Source: Gimesia algae
Lineage (GTDB): Bacteria > Planctomycetota > Planctomycetia > Planctomycetales > Planctomycetaceae
Direction: 5' to 3'
Assembly (NCBI RefSeq): GCF_007746795.1
Contig: NZ_CP036343.1
Span: forward strand, 5,245,357-5,309,356
DNA length: 64,000 nucleotides
Shown here piece by piece: positions 47,255 through 57,641 of the stretch (the stretch's first letter is position 1; every line of letters begins with the position of its first letter). The notes beneath the pieces were generated by a model. The model was not told the origin of the DNA and made no database searches. It worked only from the letters and a program-made list of their open reading frames with translations. Both the position numbers and the translations under genes were made by a program.

Positions 47255-47829
47255 AAGTCTGATGAGCAATTTCAGCTCTCACTGATATAAATTTTGCTGA
47301 ACACCAATTCTGGGCCGTAATAAATGATTTTCGCTTTGTTTCTTAAAAACGTGCTACTCCTTGCCGGTTTGATTCTGCTGGTTAAATGGTTGCCATGTCG
47401 TTGGATTCGATTCAGGGTGTTGAATCGCTTTCGCAGCACAATTCAATTTTTCAGTCGACCTGCAGTATCAATCATCACGGTGTTTATTCTCTCCTTTGTA
47501 CTGTCAGCTACTATCACGACTTTCAAAAAACCAGTCCCCCGCGTACACGATGAATTCAGCTACCTGTTAGCAGCTGATACCTTCTCACAGGGCAGGCTGA
47601 CCAACCAGACTCACCCCTTCTGGAAACATTTTCAATCCTTCCACATCATTCATAAACCGACCTATGCCTCCAAGTACCCACCCGGACAAGGACTGTTCAT
47701 GGCTGCTGGTCAGGTTATGACAGGAGACCCACTGGTCGGAGTCTGGCTCAGTATCGGCCTGGCTAGTGCTGCGATCTGCTGGATGTTTCAAGCATGGGTT
47801 CCCCCACGCTGGGCATTTGCAGGAGGACT
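47255..47829 (+). repeat. 575-bp direct repeat, copy 1 (5' part of GT-C gene 1)
   Basis: Matches 50476-51050 at a constant offset of 3221 bp with about five mismatches (for example atcacg/atctcg and cgcgtac/cgcatac). It spans the last 69 bp upstream of the gene, including the ribosome-site region, and the first 168 codons. Past aggaggact the two copies drop at once to about 60% protein identity. Confidence 0.92.
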
Positions 47830-48988
47830 GATGTCGGCATTTCATCCCCTCATGCTAATTTGGGGACAAAACTACTTTGGTGGCGGAGTCGCCATTCTGG
47901 GAGCGGCACTTTTATTTGGTGCATTGCGTCGTTTGATGATTTTTCCTGAAGCGCGAATGACATTCACCCTGGGATTAGGGTTATTTTTTCTGGCCATCAC
48001 TCGGCCATTTGAAGGACTTTTAACTGCTGTCTTTTCGATGATTATCTTTTTCGCCTGGATAGTCACACAACGGCAGTTCTCAAAGCGAGTAATTTTTCAC
48101 TCAGTTATACTACCACTGAGCATGATCTCAATTTGTATTGGAGGAGCACTTGCTTTTTACAACTGGAGAGTCACGGAAAGTCTCACTCGATTTCCTTATC
48201 AAGTCCATGAAGAAACATACTCACCAACCCCTCTGTTTATCTGGAGTGCTCCCCGGGAGGTAAAAAATGATTTACCTCACATTGAAAGTTTTCACTCAGG
48301 ATGGTCTCTTAATGAATATCAAAAACACCAGGATCCGAGGGGATATTTTTTTTCTGTCTTTAAAAAGAGCCTGAAGTTTTTAATCCAGATGCTGTATTTC
48401 CCACTGTGCACACTCCTATTGACTCTCCCCTGGGGACTTAAGAATCCCTGGACACAGATTGCCCTCTCCATTTTATTATCAGTTATACTGATTCACTTAT
48501 TCTGTATGACTTTTTTTCAGATCTTCTACCTCGCACCTGTAATTCCTCTTGTCTTTTATGTCCTGATTCAAGGTGCAAGACACTGGCGTGCTGCCCACTG
48601 GAAAAATCACAGCCAGGGCACTGTGTTCCTGTTCGGGTTGATCATACTCTATTTCACAATATTGATTCCACAAATGATTAACTATGTGCCTTCCGGATAT
48701 CAGCTTGCTCTAAGTCGTGCCAGGTTGATCGATCAGCTAAAGCAAATGCCTGAGAAAGACCTGGTCTTTGTTAAATACTCAGCCGATCATGACACACTAT
48801 TTGACTGGGTTTATAATCGAGCCGATATCGAGAACGCTGAAGTCGTCTGGGCGAACATTTTAACCAACGAAGAGAATCAGAAGTTGATTGAACATTTTGC
48901 TGATCATCAAGTCTGGTGGATCGATGTGGATTCCAAACAGATTAAACTGCGACCGCTTAGTACTACAGCGCCTGTTTACGTTTTCTAG
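47324..48988 (+). CDS. GT-C (ArnT/PMT-like) membrane glycosyltransferase, 3' end altered by IS insertion
   Basis: 554 residues, about ten membrane helices. After the first helices comes HDEFSYLLAAD (about 75-85), the acidic loop motif of GT-C enzymes that take sugars from polyprenyl-phosphate donors, then KYPPGQGLFMAAGQ. A C-terminal soluble domain (about 460-545; LKQMPEKDLVFVKYSADHD) follows. The IS starts after base 48960, so the last nine residues (STTAPVYVF) are IS-encoded. Joining across the element restores LRGLPPN and a stop at 50471-50473, a 551-residue original. The loss is at the extreme tail, so activity is probably kept. Paralogous to the gene at 50545. Confidence 0.82.
   Translation: MIFALFLKNVLLLAGLILLVKWLPCRWIRFRVLNRFRSTIQFFSRPAVSIITVFILSFVLSATITTFKKPVPRVHDEFSYLLAADTFSQGRLTNQTHPFWKHFQSFHIIHKPTYASKYPPGQGLFMAAGQVMTGDPLVGVWLSIGLASAAICWMFQAWVPPRWAFAGGLMSAFHPLMLIWGQNYFGGGVAILGAALLFGALRRLMIFPEARMTFTLGLGLFFLAITRPFEGLLTAVFSMIIFFAWIVTQRQFSKRVIFHSVILPLSMISICIGGALAFYNWRVTESLTRFPYQVHEETYSPTPLFIWSAPREVKNDLPHIESFHSGWSLNEYQKHQDPRGYFFSVFKKSLKFLIQMLYFPLCTLLLTLPWGLKNPWTQIALSILLSVILIHLFCMTFFQIFYLAPVIPLVFYVLIQGARHWRAAHWKNHSQGTVFLFGLIILYFTILIPQMINYVPSGYQLALSRARLIDQLKQMPEKDLVFVKYSADHDTLFDWVYNRADIENAEVVWANILTNEENQKLIEHFADHQVWWIDVDSKQIKLRPLSTTAPVYVF
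48957..48960. repeat. Target-site duplication TTAG, left copy
   Basis: ttag here is repeated at 50451-50454 on the other side of the element. It fits the YTAR target reported for IS701-family elements. Confidence 0.9.
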
Positions 48989-50450
48989 TGCGTCTTCGTA
49001 GTTCTTTTTTTCTTCTTTGTTCGTGGCAGTGTTTTGCGATCTGGTTGCGGGCGATTCGCCATTGACTCCATTCGACGAGTACTGCCGGGGTCCAGTCTCT
49101 TGTATATAGCAGATGCCTGAGAATGTTGCGGACTTCCGGAACAGTCAGGCCCGGATGTTTTTTTTCCCAGCCGCTGTTTCTGCAAAGTTAAAAACAGTAA
49201 CGCCAGCATAGACAGGCAGGTGTGATGGTGCCAACCGATCCAGCCGCGCGTTTCGTATTCATCCAGCCCACATTCGCCTTTACCACTCTGAAAGTTCTTT
49301 TCAATGCACCAGCGGCTGCCACCGACTTCTGCTAACTTCTTCAGGGGAATCTCAGCGGGTGCATTAGAGCGTTGATATTTCAATTCCGAATCTTGTCCCA
49401 CAGAACGGCGAACAAGCAGCCGTTCCCGCCGATCAGTCGGACGCGACTGTTCGGAAAACCAGACTGTGATTTCTGCATATTCGTAGAGGCGTGGTCCCTG
49501 ACTTCCTTCCGCAACACTCATCCGTTTCCAGGCAGACGCAGGAAGGTTCGCCACCACTTCATCGACGCGCCGGGGTTTCTTCAGGGGCTTGGCGTTCTTT
49601 GTGGGACGGCCCCCCCGGGGCGTTATCTGGCCGACGGGCCGCAACTTCGGTTTGGTGGTCCACACCCTGGCATCGCACGATGTCTCCACGACATACCACT
49701 TTCCCAACTCCCGAACGGTTTGCACAAATACCGGGCTGGTGCCGTAAATACTGTCGCCACAGACCCATTGAAACGGGACGCCCTCAATAATTGCCTGCTG
49801 GATCATTTCGCTGGCCAATTCCGGCTTGCTGCGAAAAATGACGCTGGAGGGAACACCGGCCTGCGCGAGACGCTGCTCATCTATTATCCATTGTTCAGGA
49901 AGAAACAGCCGACGATCGATCAACGTTTCGCCTTGCGAACTGCAATAACTCACAAAGACGCCCACCTGGCAATTGTCGACGCGACCGAGCGTTCCCGAAT
50001 ATTGCCGGGCTACCCCCACGGACTGTTTGCCCTTCTTGGGGAAACCAGTCTCATCAACGATCAGTAGACCGTCGTCTTCTCCCAGGGCTTCGCAGACATG
50101 TTGCCGAAGTTCTGCAAGCACATCCTGATCGGACCAGATGGCCTGGGCAATGAATTTCTGCAATGTGCGTACTACCCCGCCTTCGATTGTTTCAGCCATG
50201 TTCTCCACGTTTCGCCGGTCACCGCCAGCGAGCAGTCCCTGCAAGATCGTCATCGCATGCGCATGATTCTGCACCCGTCCAAAGTGAGACAGGTAGCGGC
50301 TCACAAAAGATTCCAGCTCCGGCATCAGCGACTCAATCGCTTTCACGTCCATCCTTGAACCTCCCAGCTACAGAAAAACCGGTCAAACGATTGATGTTAT
50401 ACTCCAAAATTACTTTAGCGTAAAAGATCAATCGTTCAGGCGCTGTAGTA
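48961..50450. mobile_element. IS701-family insertion sequence, 1490 bp
   Basis: The ends tactacagcgcctg (48961-48974) and caggcgctgtagta (50437-50450) are exact 14-bp inverted repeats, flanked by the 4-bp duplication TTAG. The single transposase gene is on the minus strand. Its intended stop (TAG, 48963-48965) lies inside the left terminal repeat. The element sits between the last codons of GT-C copy 1 and the start of copy 2. Confidence 0.95.
48963..50352 (-). pseudogene. IS701-family DDE transposase, frameshifted near the C-terminus at an A8 tract
   Basis: The frame from ATG at 50352 (GGGAGG 7 nt upstream) gives 455 residues to a stop at 48985. The catalytic core is typical of IS701: IVDETGFPKKGKQSVG with the first Asp, WVCGDSIYG with the second, and RWCIEKNFQSGKGECGLDEYE with the Glu. 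After an A8 tract (49158-49165, Ts on the plus strand) the frame turns to low-quality sequence, while the neighbouring frame reads HPGLTVPEVRNILRHLL and VEWSQWRIARNQIAKHC up to the stop at 48963. One A fewer would join them. So it is either broken in its last 65 residues or rescued by slippage. Confidence 0.8.
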
Positions 50451-50454
50451 TTAG
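50451..50454. repeat. Target-site duplication TTAG, right copy
   Basis: Second copy of the 4-bp duplication; followed by aggcctgcccccgaattaa, the original last codons and stop of GT-C copy 1. Confidence 0.9.
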
Positions 50455-50475
50455 AGGCCTGCCCCCGAATTAAAA

Positions 50476-51050
50476 AAGTCTGACGAGCAATTTCAGCTCT
50501 CACTGATATAAATTTTGCTGAACACCAATTCTGGGCCGTAATAAATGATTTTCGCTTTGTTTCTTAAAAACGTGCTACTCCTTGCCGGTTTGATTCTGCT
50601 GGTTAAATGGTTGCCATGTCGTTGGATTCGATTCAGGGTGTTGAATCGCTTTCGCAGCACAATTCAATTTTTCAGTCGACCTGCAGTATCAATCATCACG
50701 GTGTTTATTCTCTCCTTTGTACTGTCAGCTACTATCTCGACTTTCAAAAAACCAGTCCCCCGCATACACGATGAATTCAGCTACCTGTTAGCAGCTGATA
50801 CCTTCTCACAGGGCAGGCTGACCAACCAGACTCACCCCTTCTGGAAACATTTTCAATCCTTCCACATCATTCATAAACCGACCTATGCCTCCAAGTACCC
50901 ACCCGGACAAGGACTGTTCATGGCTGCTGGTCAGGTTATGACAGGAGACCCACTGGTCGGAGTCTGGCTCAGTATCGGCCTGGCTAGTGCTGCGATCTGC
51001 TGGATGTTACAAGCATGGGTTCCCCCACACTGGGCATTTGCAGGAGGACT
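50476..51050 (+). repeat. 575-bp direct repeat, copy 2 (5' part of GT-C gene 2)
   Basis: The partner of 47255-47829, about 99% identical. It begins only 3 bp after the restored stop codon of copy 1, so before the IS arrived the two genes were in direct tandem with a unit of about 1.73 kb. Confidence 0.92.
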
Positions 51051-52251
51051 TCTATCCATAATTCATCCCACTTTTATTTTCTGGGGCCAGAACTTCTGGG
51101 GAGGCGCGGTTGCCGTTCTCGGTGGGTCGCTATTATTTGGCGCATTGCGTCGTATGCTCAAAAAGCCCCAGGCAGGGGCTGCTTTTCTCATGGGGGGAGG
51201 CATCTTTCTGCTGGCAATCAGTCGCCCGTTTGAAGGCTGTTTGACAACAATTTCGGCGGTCGTATTATTGTTTGTCTGTCTGTACAAACAGCGAGTGTTA
51301 ACAAAACAGGATTTTGTTCGAACGGTTTTAGGACCGTTGGGGTTCTCAGCGATATTCATATTGAGCGCACTCGCCTATTATAACTGGAGTGTAACGGGCA
51401 TCATCACCAGATTACCTTACCAGGTGTACGAAGAAAGCTACGCAACCACTCCTGTTTTTGTTTGGGGGAGTCCTCGTGAACTCCACACAAGACATCCACA
51501 CGTTAATAAGTTCAACATTGACTGGTCTCTTCATAATTATAAGAAGATTCAAGATACTGAAGGCTACATTCAATCCATTTCTATGAAAGCAAATCTCTTC
51601 TTCGTCAGGCTATTCGCATTTCCTCTCTGGATCTTGCTGCTAATGCTGCCTTGGATTATTAAAGATCAATGGGGAAAGTATGCCGTTAGTATTGTTTTAA
51701 TCATTTTACTTGTCGAACTGACACTTACCATTTTTTTTCAGATTCACTATCTGGCATCAGTGATTCCACTAATAGTATTTCTCCTCATTCAAGGCATACG
51801 CTACTGGCGCGTCGCCAGATGGAAAGATCACAGCCAGGGCACTGTGTTTCTGTTAGGATTGATCATAATCTATTTCACAATAATGATTCCCCAATTCACT
51901 CAGTATCTTTCGAGTCCGCATCTGCCTTCCAGATATCAGCTTGGTTTAAGCCGCTCCAGATTGATCGAACAGCTAAAACAGATGCCTGAAAAAGACCTGA
52001 TCTTTGTTAAATACTCAGCCGATCATAACCCACATTTTGACTGGGTTTATAATCGAGCAGATATCGATAACTCAGAAATTGTCTGGGCGCTTCCGTTAGG
52101 CAATGCAGAAAACCAGAAACTGATCAACTACTTCTCTGACCGCAAAGTCTGGCAGCTTTCAGTGACTCCTAAAGATCTGAAGTTGACGCCATATCAAAAC
52201 GTTGTTCAGGAAAAACAACGGGGAGAAGCAAAGCAGCATACAGAAAACTGA
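50545..52251 (+). CDS. GT-C (ArnT/PMT-like) membrane glycosyltransferase, tandem paralogue
   Basis: 568 residues. The first 168 residues are nearly identical to the gene at 47324, including HDEFSYLLAAD and KYPPGQGLF. From GGLLSIIHP on it is only about 60% similar but keeps the same plan: FWGQNFWGG, RRML, AISRPFEG, membrane helices and a soluble tail (LKQMPEKDLIFVKYSADHN, FDWVYNRADI). The C-terminus is longer, ending in a Lys/Gln-rich tail. Probably transfers a different sugar or acts on a different acceptor, because the donor-loop half is shared and the rest differs. Confidence 0.85.
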   Translation: MIFALFLKNVLLLAGLILLVKWLPCRWIRFRVLNRFRSTIQFFSRPAVSIITVFILSFVLSATISTFKKPVPRIHDEFSYLLAADTFSQGRLTNQTHPFWKHFQSFHIIHKPTYASKYPPGQGLFMAAGQVMTGDPLVGVWLSIGLASAAICWMLQAWVPPHWAFAGGLLSIIHPTFIFWGQNFWGGAVAVLGGSLLFGALRRMLKKPQAGAAFLMGGGIFLLAISRPFEGCLTTISAVVLLFVCLYKQRVLTKQDFVRTVLGPLGFSAIFILSALAYYNWSVTGIITRLPYQVYEESYATTPVFVWGSPRELHTRHPHVNKFNIDWSLHNYKKIQDTEGYIQSISMKANLFFVRLFAFPLWILLLMLPWIIKDQWGKYAVSIVLIILLVELTLTIFFQIHYLASVIPLIVFLLIQGIRYWRVARWKDHSQGTVFLLGLIIIYFTIMIPQFTQYLSSPHLPSRYQLGLSRSRLIEQLKQMPEKDLIFVKYSADHNPHFDWVYNRADIDNSEIVWALPLGNAENQKLINYFSDRKVWQLSVTPKDLKLTPYQNVVQEKQRGEAKQHTEN

Positions 52252-53002: not shown

Positions 53003-53596
53003 TCATGTTGATGGCAGGTATTTTTTCAATTCTTCAAGACGAGTGTTACAATTCTCAACCAGTGATCTCAATTGAGAATCGGTCTGTCCCGCAGCTTCGA
53101 TCATCGATCTATAATACTCTATTATTTGATCAGGACTTGCTCCAAAATGCCCCCAGAACTCCTGCCTGTCTTCCGTCTGCAGGTCAAACAGCATCGCTTC
53201 CAGATTGTGAAGCTTATCCGCCAGTTCGATCGCTCTTGTCCCCAAGGTTGCCTGCTGCATCACTTGAATATGAGTTTGCTTACGATCCGGCCAACTCCGT
53301 TTCTCTCCTTCTTCCGTCTCTTTTTCCTCTGTCATTTCCTGAACGTAACGCACAACGTCCTCAGAAAAATGCTCTTCCAGATCTTCGATCGATAATTCAG
53401 TATCTTCTACAACGTCATGCAGCACAGCAGCCGCCAGAATTGATTCATCTTCAAAACCGGCCTTCATCAGGATCAAGCAGACACTCATGGGATGGGCGAT
53501 ATATGGAATGCCGGAAGACTTGCGTTTTTGAGACTTATGAGCCACTGCAGCCAGCCGAATCGCATGTTCGACCACTGGTGAATGAAGCGTATCCAT
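53003..53596 (-). CDS. RelA/SpoT-type HD hydrolase (small alarmone hydrolase-like)
   Basis: 197 residues, soluble, one domain. Metal-binding HD-domain residues: IPYIAHPMSV (His35), AVLHDVVEDT (His60, Asp61, Glu64, Asp65) and ELADKLHNLEAM (Asp near 129). These match the hydrolase half of RelA/SpoT and MESH1 enzymes, which remove pyrophosphate from (p)ppGpp. There is no synthetase domain. It lies 15 bp after the stop of the ABC-like gene, so they are probably co-transcribed. The substrate has not been shown and could be another nucleotide. Confidence 0.82.
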   Translation of the reverse strand: MDTLHSPVVEHAIRLAAVAHKSQKRKSSGIPYIAHPMSVCLILMKAGFEDESILAAAVLHDVVEDTELSIEDLEEHFSEDVVRYVQEMTEEKETEEGEKRSWPDRKQTHIQVMQQATLGTRAIELADKLHNLEAMLFDLQTEDRQEFWGHFGASPDQIIEYYRSMIEAAGQTDSQLRSLVENCNTRLEELKKYLPST

Positions 53597-53611: not shown

Positions 53612-55708
53612 TCAACGTTCGTTCGAAGTTTCCTGAGAATGCCTGAACTGATTGAAACGCGTGTATTCCCAGTGGCGATATAAGGCAGATTTTTTCAACA
53701 GACTGGACTGACTGTCGACAGCTTCGACCTTGCCTTCGTGAATCAGTACAACTTGATTAACCCGGCGCAGGGTCGTAATTCGTGAAGGAATCACCAGAAT
53801 GGTACGATTCTGGAAAATTCGTGAATAGGCATCGTCGAGAAGAGTTTTAGTATCCTCATCCAGCAGATCTTCAGGTTCTTCTATGATGAGCAGTGCAGGC
53901 TTTCGTAATAATGCTCGTGCCAGCCCTAGACGAAAACATTCGCCCACAGTTAATTCTTCCCCATGCTGTCCCAGCGAGGTCTCATACCCCTGAGATAAAT
54001 TCTGAATGAACTGATGGGCGTGTGCCTCCTTGGAAGCCGCAATCACTTCCTGCAGAGAGTATCGCTCATCACCACACTGGATATTCTCTTTGACCGTTCC
54101 GGTCAGACAGGGATCATTTCCACTCACATAGATTGCTTCAGCTCGCAAAGATTCCAGAGTCACCCAGGCTGTATCTTCACCATCCAACAGAACCCGACCC
54201 GATTGAGGTTCAATAAACCGCGGTATCAGATAACTCACGGCACGTGGAGCCAGTTTTTCCAGAGAGACCAGGGCCGTACTGGTTCCTGCGGGAATTTTTA
54301 AATCAAATCCCTTGAGTAATGGAAGGCTGTGGGAATTTAACTGGAAACTGACATTTTCAAACTGTAGTGCCTGCGACAAAGGTTCTAAAAACTTGGCTCC
54401 TACTGCCTGTCCTACAGCCGGGATCTGATTGAGGTAACGATAGATTGAACTTGCCGCAATATTCGATTCATCGTGAGTCTGAATCAACTGGTATAATCCA
54501 TTTACAGGCAGATAGAAAAAGGCAAAGATCCCCGTCATCAAAACAGCTGCGGAGAGAGGCAGGCTGCCTGGATTCACCAGCACTTTATACCCTACCAGAA
54601 ACAGAACCATGCACGAACAGAATACTGCCAGTCCTCGCGCCACCCGATGCCCCCAACCCTCAACGCGTTTGAGTGTTGCGATATTATCAGTATACTTCTC
54701 TAGATGTTTTTGAAACTGTTCATGTTCCGCCGTTTCCATTCCGAAACCACGCACCAGTCGGCTACTTCGCAGGTTTTCAGCAAGTAAAGACAATTCCGAC
54801 TCAATCGAAACCAGTGTTTTTGCCTGCTCCTTTTCATAGTTTTTGCGATGTTGTAACAAAAAGTACCAGGCTGCCACCAATGGAATCATACACTGTAGTG
54901 ACAGTCTCCAGTCAATTGAAACTGCAAACAGCAGTAGAATCAGCAGAGTGACCGGATGACGCGACAATCCATAAACCCACTGAAATACACCCTGCTGGAC
55001 CGTACCCACATCCCGAATAAACAGCTGAAAGGCCTGCTCAGTCTCTTTACCTGACAGGTCACCTGGCCCCAGGCGCAGAGCCTGTCGATGGATCATATTT
55101 CGCAATGTCATTGAAACTTGATGCGAAATTTTCAAACTCTTCTGCCGGGACCTCCAACGGATCAAAACGCGAATGCTGGCAACCACCAAAGCAAAACAGA
55201 TCAATGTGAACAAAGCAGACTGATTTTCCTGCAGCAGCGGAACCCGCTGGTACAACTGTGGCAATAAACCTATCTGATATTTGGAATGCGTCCACCAGAC
55301 TGATGGCAAAATACCGGAGTCAGTCAGACTCACCATCTGTAACTGGGGCATTTCTGTTGACGGGGGTGCTTCCGGCTGAGGCACGGACTTTGGTTCTGAA
55401 GATTTTGCCTCTGCCTGAACGTTCTCCGGTCCTGGGACAGTTTCTTCCTGTTCGTTTCCTTCAGGTAAGCTCACAGGAGCTGTTCTCAGTTCCTGCAGCT
55501 GCTTGACGTTCTGTTCGCCGTGGAGTGTAATTCGCCCCCGATGGTCGAGCAGATCAATGATCAGAAACAGATCGACCAGCAACAGAATGAGCAGCAGGCC
55601 ATTGACGAGCGACCAGAACAGAACAGATCTGGCAGATCCACGGAAGAACTCCCGTGCGGGGAAAGCACGATGAAATGCGTTGGGCTGACGATTTGACACA
55701 AGACCCAC
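53612..55708 (-). CDS. ABC-exporter-like protein with degenerate ATPase domain
   Basis: 698 residues. Membrane helix near 30-52, a Pro/Glu-rich loop (about 70-130), then helices and long cytoplasmic loops of an ABC exporter (about 155-430), and a domain (about 450-680) that aligns end to end with ABC ATPases. In that domain the nucleotide motifs are lost: the Walker A place reads SLEKLAPRA (near 480), the Q-loop Gln is Asn (SGND), LSGGQ is replaced by LTVGECFR, the Walker B Asp is Glu (IIEEPED), and the H-loop His is Ser (IPSRI). The surrounding fold is kept (IEPQSGRVLLDGED, GTVKENI, LGLARALL). Probably no ATPase; a signalling or structural role is inferred. GTG start, uncertain. Confidence 0.82.
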   Translation of the reverse strand: MGLVSNRQPNAFHRAFPAREFFRGSARSVLFWSLVNGLLLILLLVDLFLIIDLLDHRGRITLHGEQNVKQLQELRTAPVSLPEGNEQEETVPGPENVQAEAKSSEPKSVPQPEAPPSTEMPQLQMVSLTDSGILPSVWWTHSKYQIGLLPQLYQRVPLLQENQSALFTLICFALVVASIRVLIRWRSRQKSLKISHQVSMTLRNMIHRQALRLGPGDLSGKETEQAFQLFIRDVGTVQQGVFQWVYGLSRHPVTLLILLLFAVSIDWRLSLQCMIPLVAAWYFLLQHRKNYEKEQAKTLVSIESELSLLAENLRSSRLVRGFGMETAEHEQFQKHLEKYTDNIATLKRVEGWGHRVARGLAVFCSCMVLFLVGYKVLVNPGSLPLSAAVLMTGIFAFFYLPVNGLYQLIQTHDESNIAASSIYRYLNQIPAVGQAVGAKFLEPLSQALQFENVSFQLNSHSLPLLKGFDLKIPAGTSTALVSLEKLAPRAVSYLIPRFIEPQSGRVLLDGEDTAWVTLESLRAEAIYVSGNDPCLTGTVKENIQCGDERYSLQEVIAASKEAHAHQFIQNLSQGYETSLGQHGEELTVGECFRLGLARALLRKPALLIIEEPEDLLDEDTKTLLDDAYSRIFQNRTILVIPSRITTLRRVNQVVLIHEGKVEAVDSQSSLLKKSALYRHWEYTRFNQFRHSQETSNER

Positions 55709-55754: not shown

Positions 55755-56681
55755 TCAGGCAAGGTCACGGTCTTCAAAAAGAATAAAGGCAACCAGAATC
55801 GCAATTCCGGAATAGAGCAGACAGCTTAATGCCGAATGACCAATATAGACTGGTGGAACGACAGTTCCTGTTGCCACCGCTGGCGACATGTTAAAGTTAT
55901 CCAGGTTAGGCAGAATTGTAGCGATCAGCTGCCCGGTGAATTTCACAAACTCCAGTCCCTCTGACTTGGCCTGCACCAGATTGGGAGTAAGGTGACCAAT
56001 AATGTAGATCCCAAAGCAGATAATCATATTCACCATCATCGGCAGGCGGGTTGAAATGGCGACACTGATGGCAGCCAGAATTGCGACTTCCATATAAATC
56101 AAAAGAATACCAGGCAGAATCAACCAGACAGCCGCCATTTTTTCGGCATGCGTCGGTGCGTCCTGCGAAGCTTCACGAGCGTCGTACCCGACTTTGAAGT
56201 AAACCAGCAGCAGGAATGTAATCACCATCGGCAACATCAGCCAGACCACGGCTTTTAGAATTCCCAGATACTTCCCAATAATAAATTGCCGACGATTGAT
56301 CGGTTTTGACAGCAGAGTCATTGCTGTTTTGCCTTCAATTTCATCTGCGACACTGGTACTGGCAGACCAGACCGCCAGCAGGAGACTGCAAATCAAAATC
56401 GTTGCCAGACCACAGTCCATCAACATTTTGACATCATCTCCCATGGAGAAAAATGGCAGAAACGTATTCAACAGTAGCAATAGCAGACCCATTGCCATCA
56501 ATAACAGGAATACTGGCTGGCGAATCGCCTCTTTAGTGGTTGCCCTGGCGATAACGCCTGCCTGAGTGAATGAAGCCACACCAAACAATAGTACAAAGTA
56601 GAGCAGGACACCTGCTCCGGTTAACCACCACTGAACCGTCAAGTCAGCTGTTTCTGCTGAAAAAACCAGGAGGCTTTCCAT
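55755..56681 (-). CDS. ABC-2 type transporter permease
   Basis: 308 residues, six membrane helices. The N-terminal ends of helix regions carry ATTKEAIRQPVFLLL, and between helices 2 and 3 is EIEGKTAMTLLSKPINRRQFIIGKYLG, the hallmark loop of GldF/NatB-like ABC-2 permeases that couples to an ATPase. A second half with KMAAVWLILPGILLIYMEVAILAAISVAIS follows. No intact ABC ATPase gene is adjacent; the next gene (46 bp downstream) is the degenerate ABC-like protein. Confidence 0.85.
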   Translation of the reverse strand: MESLLVFSAETADLTVQWWLTGAGVLLYFVLLFGVASFTQAGVIARATTKEAIRQPVFLLLMAMGLLLLLLNTFLPFFSMGDDVKMLMDCGLATILICSLLLAVWSASTSVADEIEGKTAMTLLSKPINRRQFIIGKYLGILKAVVWLMLPMVITFLLLVYFKVGYDAREASQDAPTHAEKMAAVWLILPGILLIYMEVAILAAISVAISTRLPMMVNMIICFGIYIIGHLTPNLVQAKSEGLEFVKFTGQLIATILPNLDNFNMSPAVATGTVVPPVYIGHSALSCLLYSGIAILVAFILFEDRDLA

Positions 56682-57008: not shown

Positions 57009-57317
57009 TTAACGCTCGATCTGGAACTGCTGAAAATATGGTTGCGAGTCGATTTCTTTGACTGATACATCTGTGACATTCGTCGCGAAGGTCAGCATCA
57101 TATCATCAAAAAACTGCTCCAGAACCGCCTTATCCTGTGTTTGCGCCACTAGCTCTACCGTGCCATCAGGCAGGTTTTTCACATATCCGGTTATCGGATA
57201 CCGCTGTGCAAGTCGCGTCGTCTGGTAGCGAAACCCGACTCCCTGCACTCGTCCATGATAGATCGCGCGCAGTGCAACGCAGACTGATGGATCGGGTTGC
57301 TCTGGCTCAGCAGACAT
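57009..57317 (-). CDS. acyP: Acylphosphatase
   Basis: 102 residues. Hydrolyses acyl-phosphates to a carboxylate and phosphate. Catalytic loop [12 protein letters not shown] with the essential Arg (about 19-30), then [16 protein letters not shown] with the second catalytic Asn. Length is normal for the single-domain family, with a short acidic N-terminal extension. It precedes the permease operon and follows csrA on the same strand, with 120 bp between it and csrA. Confidence 0.95.
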
Positions 57318-57437: not shown

Positions 57438-57641
57438 TTAAGGCGAAGAAGGTTCTTCTGTGAACTGCTCGGTTTCTGGCAGATCCGAAAAATCGATACA
57501 CAGCTCTTCGCGCACAATACTCATGCTGCGTGGGGCATCAATGCCCAGTCTGACTGAATTCGGGCCGATTCGAACAATCGTCAATGTTACATCATCGCCA
57601 ATACGAATTCGTTCACCGGGCTTTCGTGATAATACAAGCAT
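57438..57641 (-). CDS. csrA: Carbon storage regulator CsrA/RsmA
   Basis: 67 residues. The dimeric RNA-binding protein that blocks or stabilises mRNAs at GGA motifs. Conserved MLVLSRKPGERIRIGDDV, VRLGIDAPRSMSIVREEL, which hold the RNA-contact residues (L4, R6, R44-equivalent). The C-terminal ten residues are acidic. The upstream Shine-Dalgarno is AAGGA, 11 nt before the ATG. No FliW gene or csrB-like RNA was seen in the window. Confidence 0.96.
   Translation of the reverse strand: MLVLSRKPGERIRIGDDVTLTIVRIGPNSVRLGIDAPRSMSIVREELCIDFSDLPETEQFTEEPSSP

Follow-up and report, generated by a model that had tools for sequence, protein, structure and literature searches.

Within a stretch of 64,000 nucleotides from Gimesia algae (contig NZ_CP036343.1, positions 5,245,357 to 5,309,356 of the forward strand; hereafter the window), one open reading frame (ORF) encodes a protein with the build of an ATP-binding cassette (ABC) exporter, in which a transmembrane (TM) domain (TMD) is followed by a nucleotide-binding domain (NBD) that carries replacements at most of its nucleotide-site motifs. 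The gene, here termed pseudo-exporter, lies directly behind the gene for an orphan ABC-2 permease of the NosY type (Table 1). ABC exporters are the textbook example of a fold whose hallmark is the ATP site, and cases in which one of the two sites has partly degenerated have been studied widely. The protein described here belongs to a pseudoenzyme family that falls within the type IV ABC exporters and has an uncommon neighbour in its operon. Our literature searches found no published description of such a family, and in the essential-gene study of Planctopirus limnophila (PMC10632474), ABC transporters are not mentioned in the main text.

Fold and nucleotide-site motifs

Pfam analysis of the window protein returned ABC_membrane together with a shortened ABC_tran match beginning past the P-loop, and PF00664 and PF00005 exceeded the cut-off in 32-33 of 33 family members; NCBIfam gave distant ABC exporter matches only, far under the cut-off. 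The AlphaFold2 model, calculated from 57 related sequences, reached a mean predicted local distance difference test (pLDDT) score of 89.4 and a predicted template modelling (pTM) score of 0.82, with most blocks of the pseudo-NBD at 90-98, and a fold search with this model retrieved the complete type IV exporters TmrAB, MsbA, TM287/288 and ABCB10 (VIA Z ~30, 554-583 residues). By fold and descent, the pseudo-exporter is therefore a type IV ABC exporter (MsbA/TmrAB fold), in which an ABC_membrane domain with six TM segments is joined to an ABC NBD. An earlier sequence-only reading of this locus had stated that the exporter architecture is kept and had proposed structure prediction as a check; the Pfam domains and the confidently predicted, intact exporter fold bear this out. 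An insert of approximately 100 residues, periplasmic, occupies the TM1/TM2 interval.

The motif columns were read from an alignment with intact relatives, which agreed with the replacements that the sequence-only reading had named at Walker A, the ABC signature, the Walker B Asp and the H-loop His. Its assignment of Asn to the Q-loop column was correct as to the loss of Gln but not as to the column, which holds Gly530 in the window protein and is adjoined by Asn531, neither position being Gln. The further statement that every nucleotide motif has been lost holds for the motifs listed but was slightly overstated, because the second, catalytic Walker B residue Glu611, the D-loop residue Asp617 and the aromatic A-loop residue Phe455 remain. 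All family members (100%) keep Glu611 and 92% keep Asp617; at the A-loop, most sequences within the clade formed by the family itself have an aromatic residue. As sister species with 75-92% identity share the motif replacements of the window protein, chance or sequencing error can be excluded.

The segment at the former Walker A has a family consensus of its own, S-L-D-P-L-E-A-R-A, with D, E or N at position 484 in 95% of members, and in the AlphaFold2 model only three loop residues (483-485) part the strand and the helix at this site. D-P-x-E is a classical helix-capping pattern, which suggests that what was the phosphate-binding loop now folds as an ordinary turn; read in this way, the P-loop is replaced by what appears to be a helix N-cap. 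Since Walker A and the signature are both missing, neither composite site could be formed, be it in a homodimer or with any partner, and judged by sequence no ATP cycle would be expected. We thus regard it as very probable that the pseudo-exporter does not hydrolyse ATP, and canonical ATP binding is, with somewhat less certainty, probably absent as well. Compared with MsbA, TmrAB, TM287/288 and Sav1866, the chain order of TMD and NBD, the fold, the coupling regions and the D-loop are retained and the profile match is strong, whereas Walker A, LSGGQ and the Walker B Asp are gone, the TM1-TM2 insert is added, and in the Planctomycetaceae the Q and H loops are lost, too.

Table 1 Coordinates of the pseudo-exporter, its replaced motifs and neighbouring genes in the window.
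Feature	Position	Strand	Description
Pseudo-ABC exporter ORF	53612..55708	minus	GTG start, 698 aa; TM domain and pseudo-NBD
Pseudo-nucleotide-binding domain (pseudo-NBD)	53639..54409	minus	Residues 434-690
Walker A position (GxxGxGK[ST])	54239..54265	minus	SLEKLAPRA, residues 482-490; from alignment
Q-loop region	54080..54127	minus	VSGNDPCLTGTVKENI, without Gln; from alignment
ABC signature position	53930..53953	minus	LTVGECFR (LSGGQ to LTVGE, 586-590); from alignment
Walker B region	53873..53893	minus	LLIIEEP; Asp to Glu610, second Glu611 retained, Ala to Pro; from alignment
H-loop region	53771..53791	minus	IPSRITT, His to Ser642; from alignment
Orphan ABC-2 (NosY-like) permease	55755..56681	minus	308 aa, PF12679; 46 bp upstream of pseudo-exporter, same strand
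Acylphosphatase-like ORF	57009..57317	minus	Often directly upstream of permease; identity from sequence
HD_4 (SpoT-type HD domain) protein	53003..53596	minus	Directly downstream of pseudo-exporter

Distribution, descent and selection

In searches of 59 relatives, all genomes of the genus and the family, and many others of the class, had an orthologue. With a profile cut-off of E <= 1e-140, which is conservative because divergent members exist below it, a match was obtained in 207 of 347 class genomes, one copy each (202/339 among good genomes). Outside the class, scores did not exceed the level of intact exporters (<= 413 bits versus 450-937) and no pseudo-exporter was recognised. The comparison of homologues at the motif columns, which the sequence-only reading had also proposed, covered approximately 127 distinct orthologues, which represent ten or more groups at family level: none has the Walker A consensus or LSGGQ, and none keeps S-G-G-Q. 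The low-scoring candidates for an intact version in some relative (G042, G055, G078, G281, G210, G186, G132 and G222) all turned out to be degenerate. In the phylogenetic tree, one branch with a support of 100 in the Shimodaira-Hasegawa-like approximate likelihood ratio test (SH-aLRT) splits 21 intact exporters from 63 pseudo-exporters, and the clades within the latter track taxonomy, which is consistent with one origin of the family followed by vertical descent.

On the alignment, the loss of nucleotide motifs is graded across families. The Walker A Lys is retained in 12 of 15 members from Isosphaeraceae and 13 of 25 from Gemmataceae, the Q-loop Gln in 13/15 and 14/25, and the H-loop His in 14/15 and 9/25, respectively, while all three are practically absent among 60 members from Planctomycetaceae. 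Shared by all members are the loss of the Walker A consensus (the glycines and Ser/Thr) and of LSGGQ, and the Walker B exchange of Asp for Glu is near-universal. The graded loss thereby offers a series on which the order of residue loss can be tested.

Within the genus, the ratio of nonsynonymous to synonymous substitution rates (dN/dS, Nei-Gojobori) lay at 0.017-0.071 in the pseudo-NBD, against 0.06-0.12 in the remainder of the protein, and mean column conservation was 0.62 for the pseudo-NBD versus 0.41 for the TMD. Conserved TMD residues cluster in the NBD-coupling regions (R203, H207, R212, G214, E311, R317 and E325). Selection accordingly retains the NBD core, the D-loop, the X-loop region and the TMD coupling regions, the parts that serve dimer contact and NBD-TMD communication. 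The claim of the sequence-only reading that selection acts for a non-ATPase role is well supported by the orthologues, the dN/dS of the pseudo-NBD and the predicted fold.

The NosY-like permease and the proposed role of the pseudo-exporter

PF12679 was found in 29 of 29 members of the permease family, and the permease of the window is the only PF12679 match in this genome without an adjoining ATPase. Its predicted structure (pLDDT 89) gave NosY as top Foldseek matches and nearest solved structure; by sequence, NosY was the sole, weak match in the PDB, and the resemblance to GldF is weak. Among the 103 distinct loci with enough upstream DNA, 93 show the permease directly followed by the pseudo-exporter, with a median gap of 65 bp, and this adjacency extends to very divergent Isosphaeraceae as well as to the families f5, f8 (one genome), f14, f17 and f18. 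Where the genes are apart, two genomes (G018, G043) have the permease elsewhere, and it was not found in a third (G035, 90% complete); both genes are absent from G138 (99% complete). No ABC ATPase was found directly beside the permease in the class loci examined or in 16 loci outside the class. In most loci outside the class (L184-L199), the permease relatives lie between divergent ParB-like and metallophosphatase genes, without an ATPase.

An intact GldA/NosF-like ABC ATPase is encoded by an unlinked single-copy gene (G000:C1:4631242-4632165; L236:2743-3666, L241). It matches GldA and NosF and is present in 16/16 class genomes examined, in none of which a polytopic gene was found within 1.5 kb of it. 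The arrangement thus differs from NosFY and GldA-GldF: the ATPase gene is not linked to the permease gene, which pairs with that of a pseudo-ABC exporter instead.

As the best explanation overall, to which we assign a probability of about 0.55, we propose that the protein is a pseudo-ABC exporter which works independently of ATP and assists the NosY-like permease as an accessory or a scaffold. It would represent a conserved pseudoenzyme that arose a single time from an ABC exporter of type IV (MsbA/P-gp-type). It would form a homodimer in which the pseudo-NBDs maintain a single conformation, or transmit it, without ATP cycling, and would serve the upstream permease as gate, anchor or regulator. 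That the two proteins are functional partners we consider likely. The motor of the permease would have to come from an unlinked gene, for which the orphan GldA/NosF-like ATPase is the best candidate, although this assignment is tentative and has the odds somewhat against it. The complete two-body machine, in which a NosY-like permease powered by a separately encoded ATPase cooperates with an ABC-exporter body converted to a nucleotide-free structural or regulatory subunit, is more doubtful still. The sequence-only reading had suggested sensing or assembly as the non-ATPase role; the present findings favour a more concrete role, that of accessory or scaffold to the upstream permease, whose gene that reading had not mentioned.

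Several observations weigh against this proposal. The two genes are not adjacent in ten loci, and the permease occurs without pseudo-exporter in Pirellulales-like families and other classes, which shows that it does not depend on the latter. Most of the closest relatives of the ATPase outside the class adjoin their own large permease, mostly with 9-12 TM, so that the match of orphan ATPase and orphan permease is put forward as a hypothesis, and the co-occurrence of ATPase and permease outside the class is not clean. Finally, highly divergent pseudo-exporters in the loci L170 and L171 adjoin ordinary permeases; the rates of the two genes thus do not change together. These two pseudo-exporters (L170:8128-10095 and L171:5147-7069) are extremely diverged, with branch lengths of up to ~3.5, beside an ordinary conserved permease, and the accessory gene seems free to diverge here while the permease is not.

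Among the alternative explanations, a remodelled site that binds another ligand, such as a metal or a signalling nucleotide, via D484, E610 and E611, and hence a sensor protein, fares best but is still improbable. The strong conservation of D484 (or E/N) and of E610/E611 within the most conserved domain would fit such a function; however, D484-P-x-E487 fits a plain helix cap, E610 and P612 may be structural, and no known ligand pocket was identified. Slightly less probable is a secondary, proton-driven transporter on the ABC-exporter scaffold, in which the pseudo-NBD would do no more than clamp the dimer. The TMD is under selection here, and SbmA, one of the SbmA/BacA-like peptide transporters (SLiPTs), provides a precedent for an ABC-exporter-like TMD that is proton-driven and no longer powered by ATP (PMC13316013). 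Their pattern is nevertheless the opposite of the one observed, which makes SbmA-like transport less likely: SLiPTs discarded the NBD along with the coupling helices and depend on a TMD glutamate ladder (PMC13316013), whereas in the pseudo-exporter the NBD and the coupling regions are best conserved, and no conserved acidic residue was found in the sampled TM helix segments (best D52, 56/100).

We consider it very unlikely that the pseudo-exporter makes up the inactive half of a heterodimer with an active, intact exporter encoded elsewhere. Many heterodimeric exporters have one degenerate site (PMC7756269), and the genome has intact exporter paralogues; TAP, TmrAB, MRP1 and CFTR likewise combine a retained NBD fold with a degenerate signature or Walker B. 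These systems, however, have a canonical site besides the degenerate one, and Walker A is mostly retained in their degenerate half (PMC7756269), while both composite-site contributions are gone in the pseudo-exporter, ruling out either site with any partner, and no partner is linked, an intact exporter within several kb having been found in only one of the loci searched (L042, ~5 kb away). A decaying pseudogene or an assembly artefact, as the loss of all nucleotide-contacting motifs named by the sequence-only reading might suggest, was rejected as next to impossible on the grounds of the pseudo-NBD dN/dS of 0.02-0.07, frames that are open in almost all orthologues and the broad, single-copy conservation.

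If the ATP-independent accessory role is correct, one ABC architecture serves as pseudo-subunit of another, and a pump body has been reused class-wide in planctomycetes for a task that is not expected to consume ATP. A vertically inherited family lacking the nucleotide site on either face, with an NBD under stronger selection than the TMD and beside another type of ABC permease, constitutes a natural experiment on the roles of NBDs beyond hydrolysis.

Further genes in the window

In many lineages, among them those that lack the pseudo-exporter, the acylphosphatase-like gene precedes the permease, and in this genome a CsrA-like gene (57438-57641) lies directly past it. On the other side, the HD_4 gene accompanies the pseudo-exporter in the genus and a few other members of the family and is no constant partner. 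Elsewhere in the window, positions 47324-52251 hold two tandem polytopic membrane proteins of 554 and 568 aa on either side of a 455-aa transposase-like ORF (48985-50352, minus strand); the N-terminal halves of the two membrane proteins are near-identical, and their C-terminal halves have diverged. As two relatives (L051, L052) have a single copy of this membrane protein and lack the transposase there, an insertion-associated duplication is suggested.
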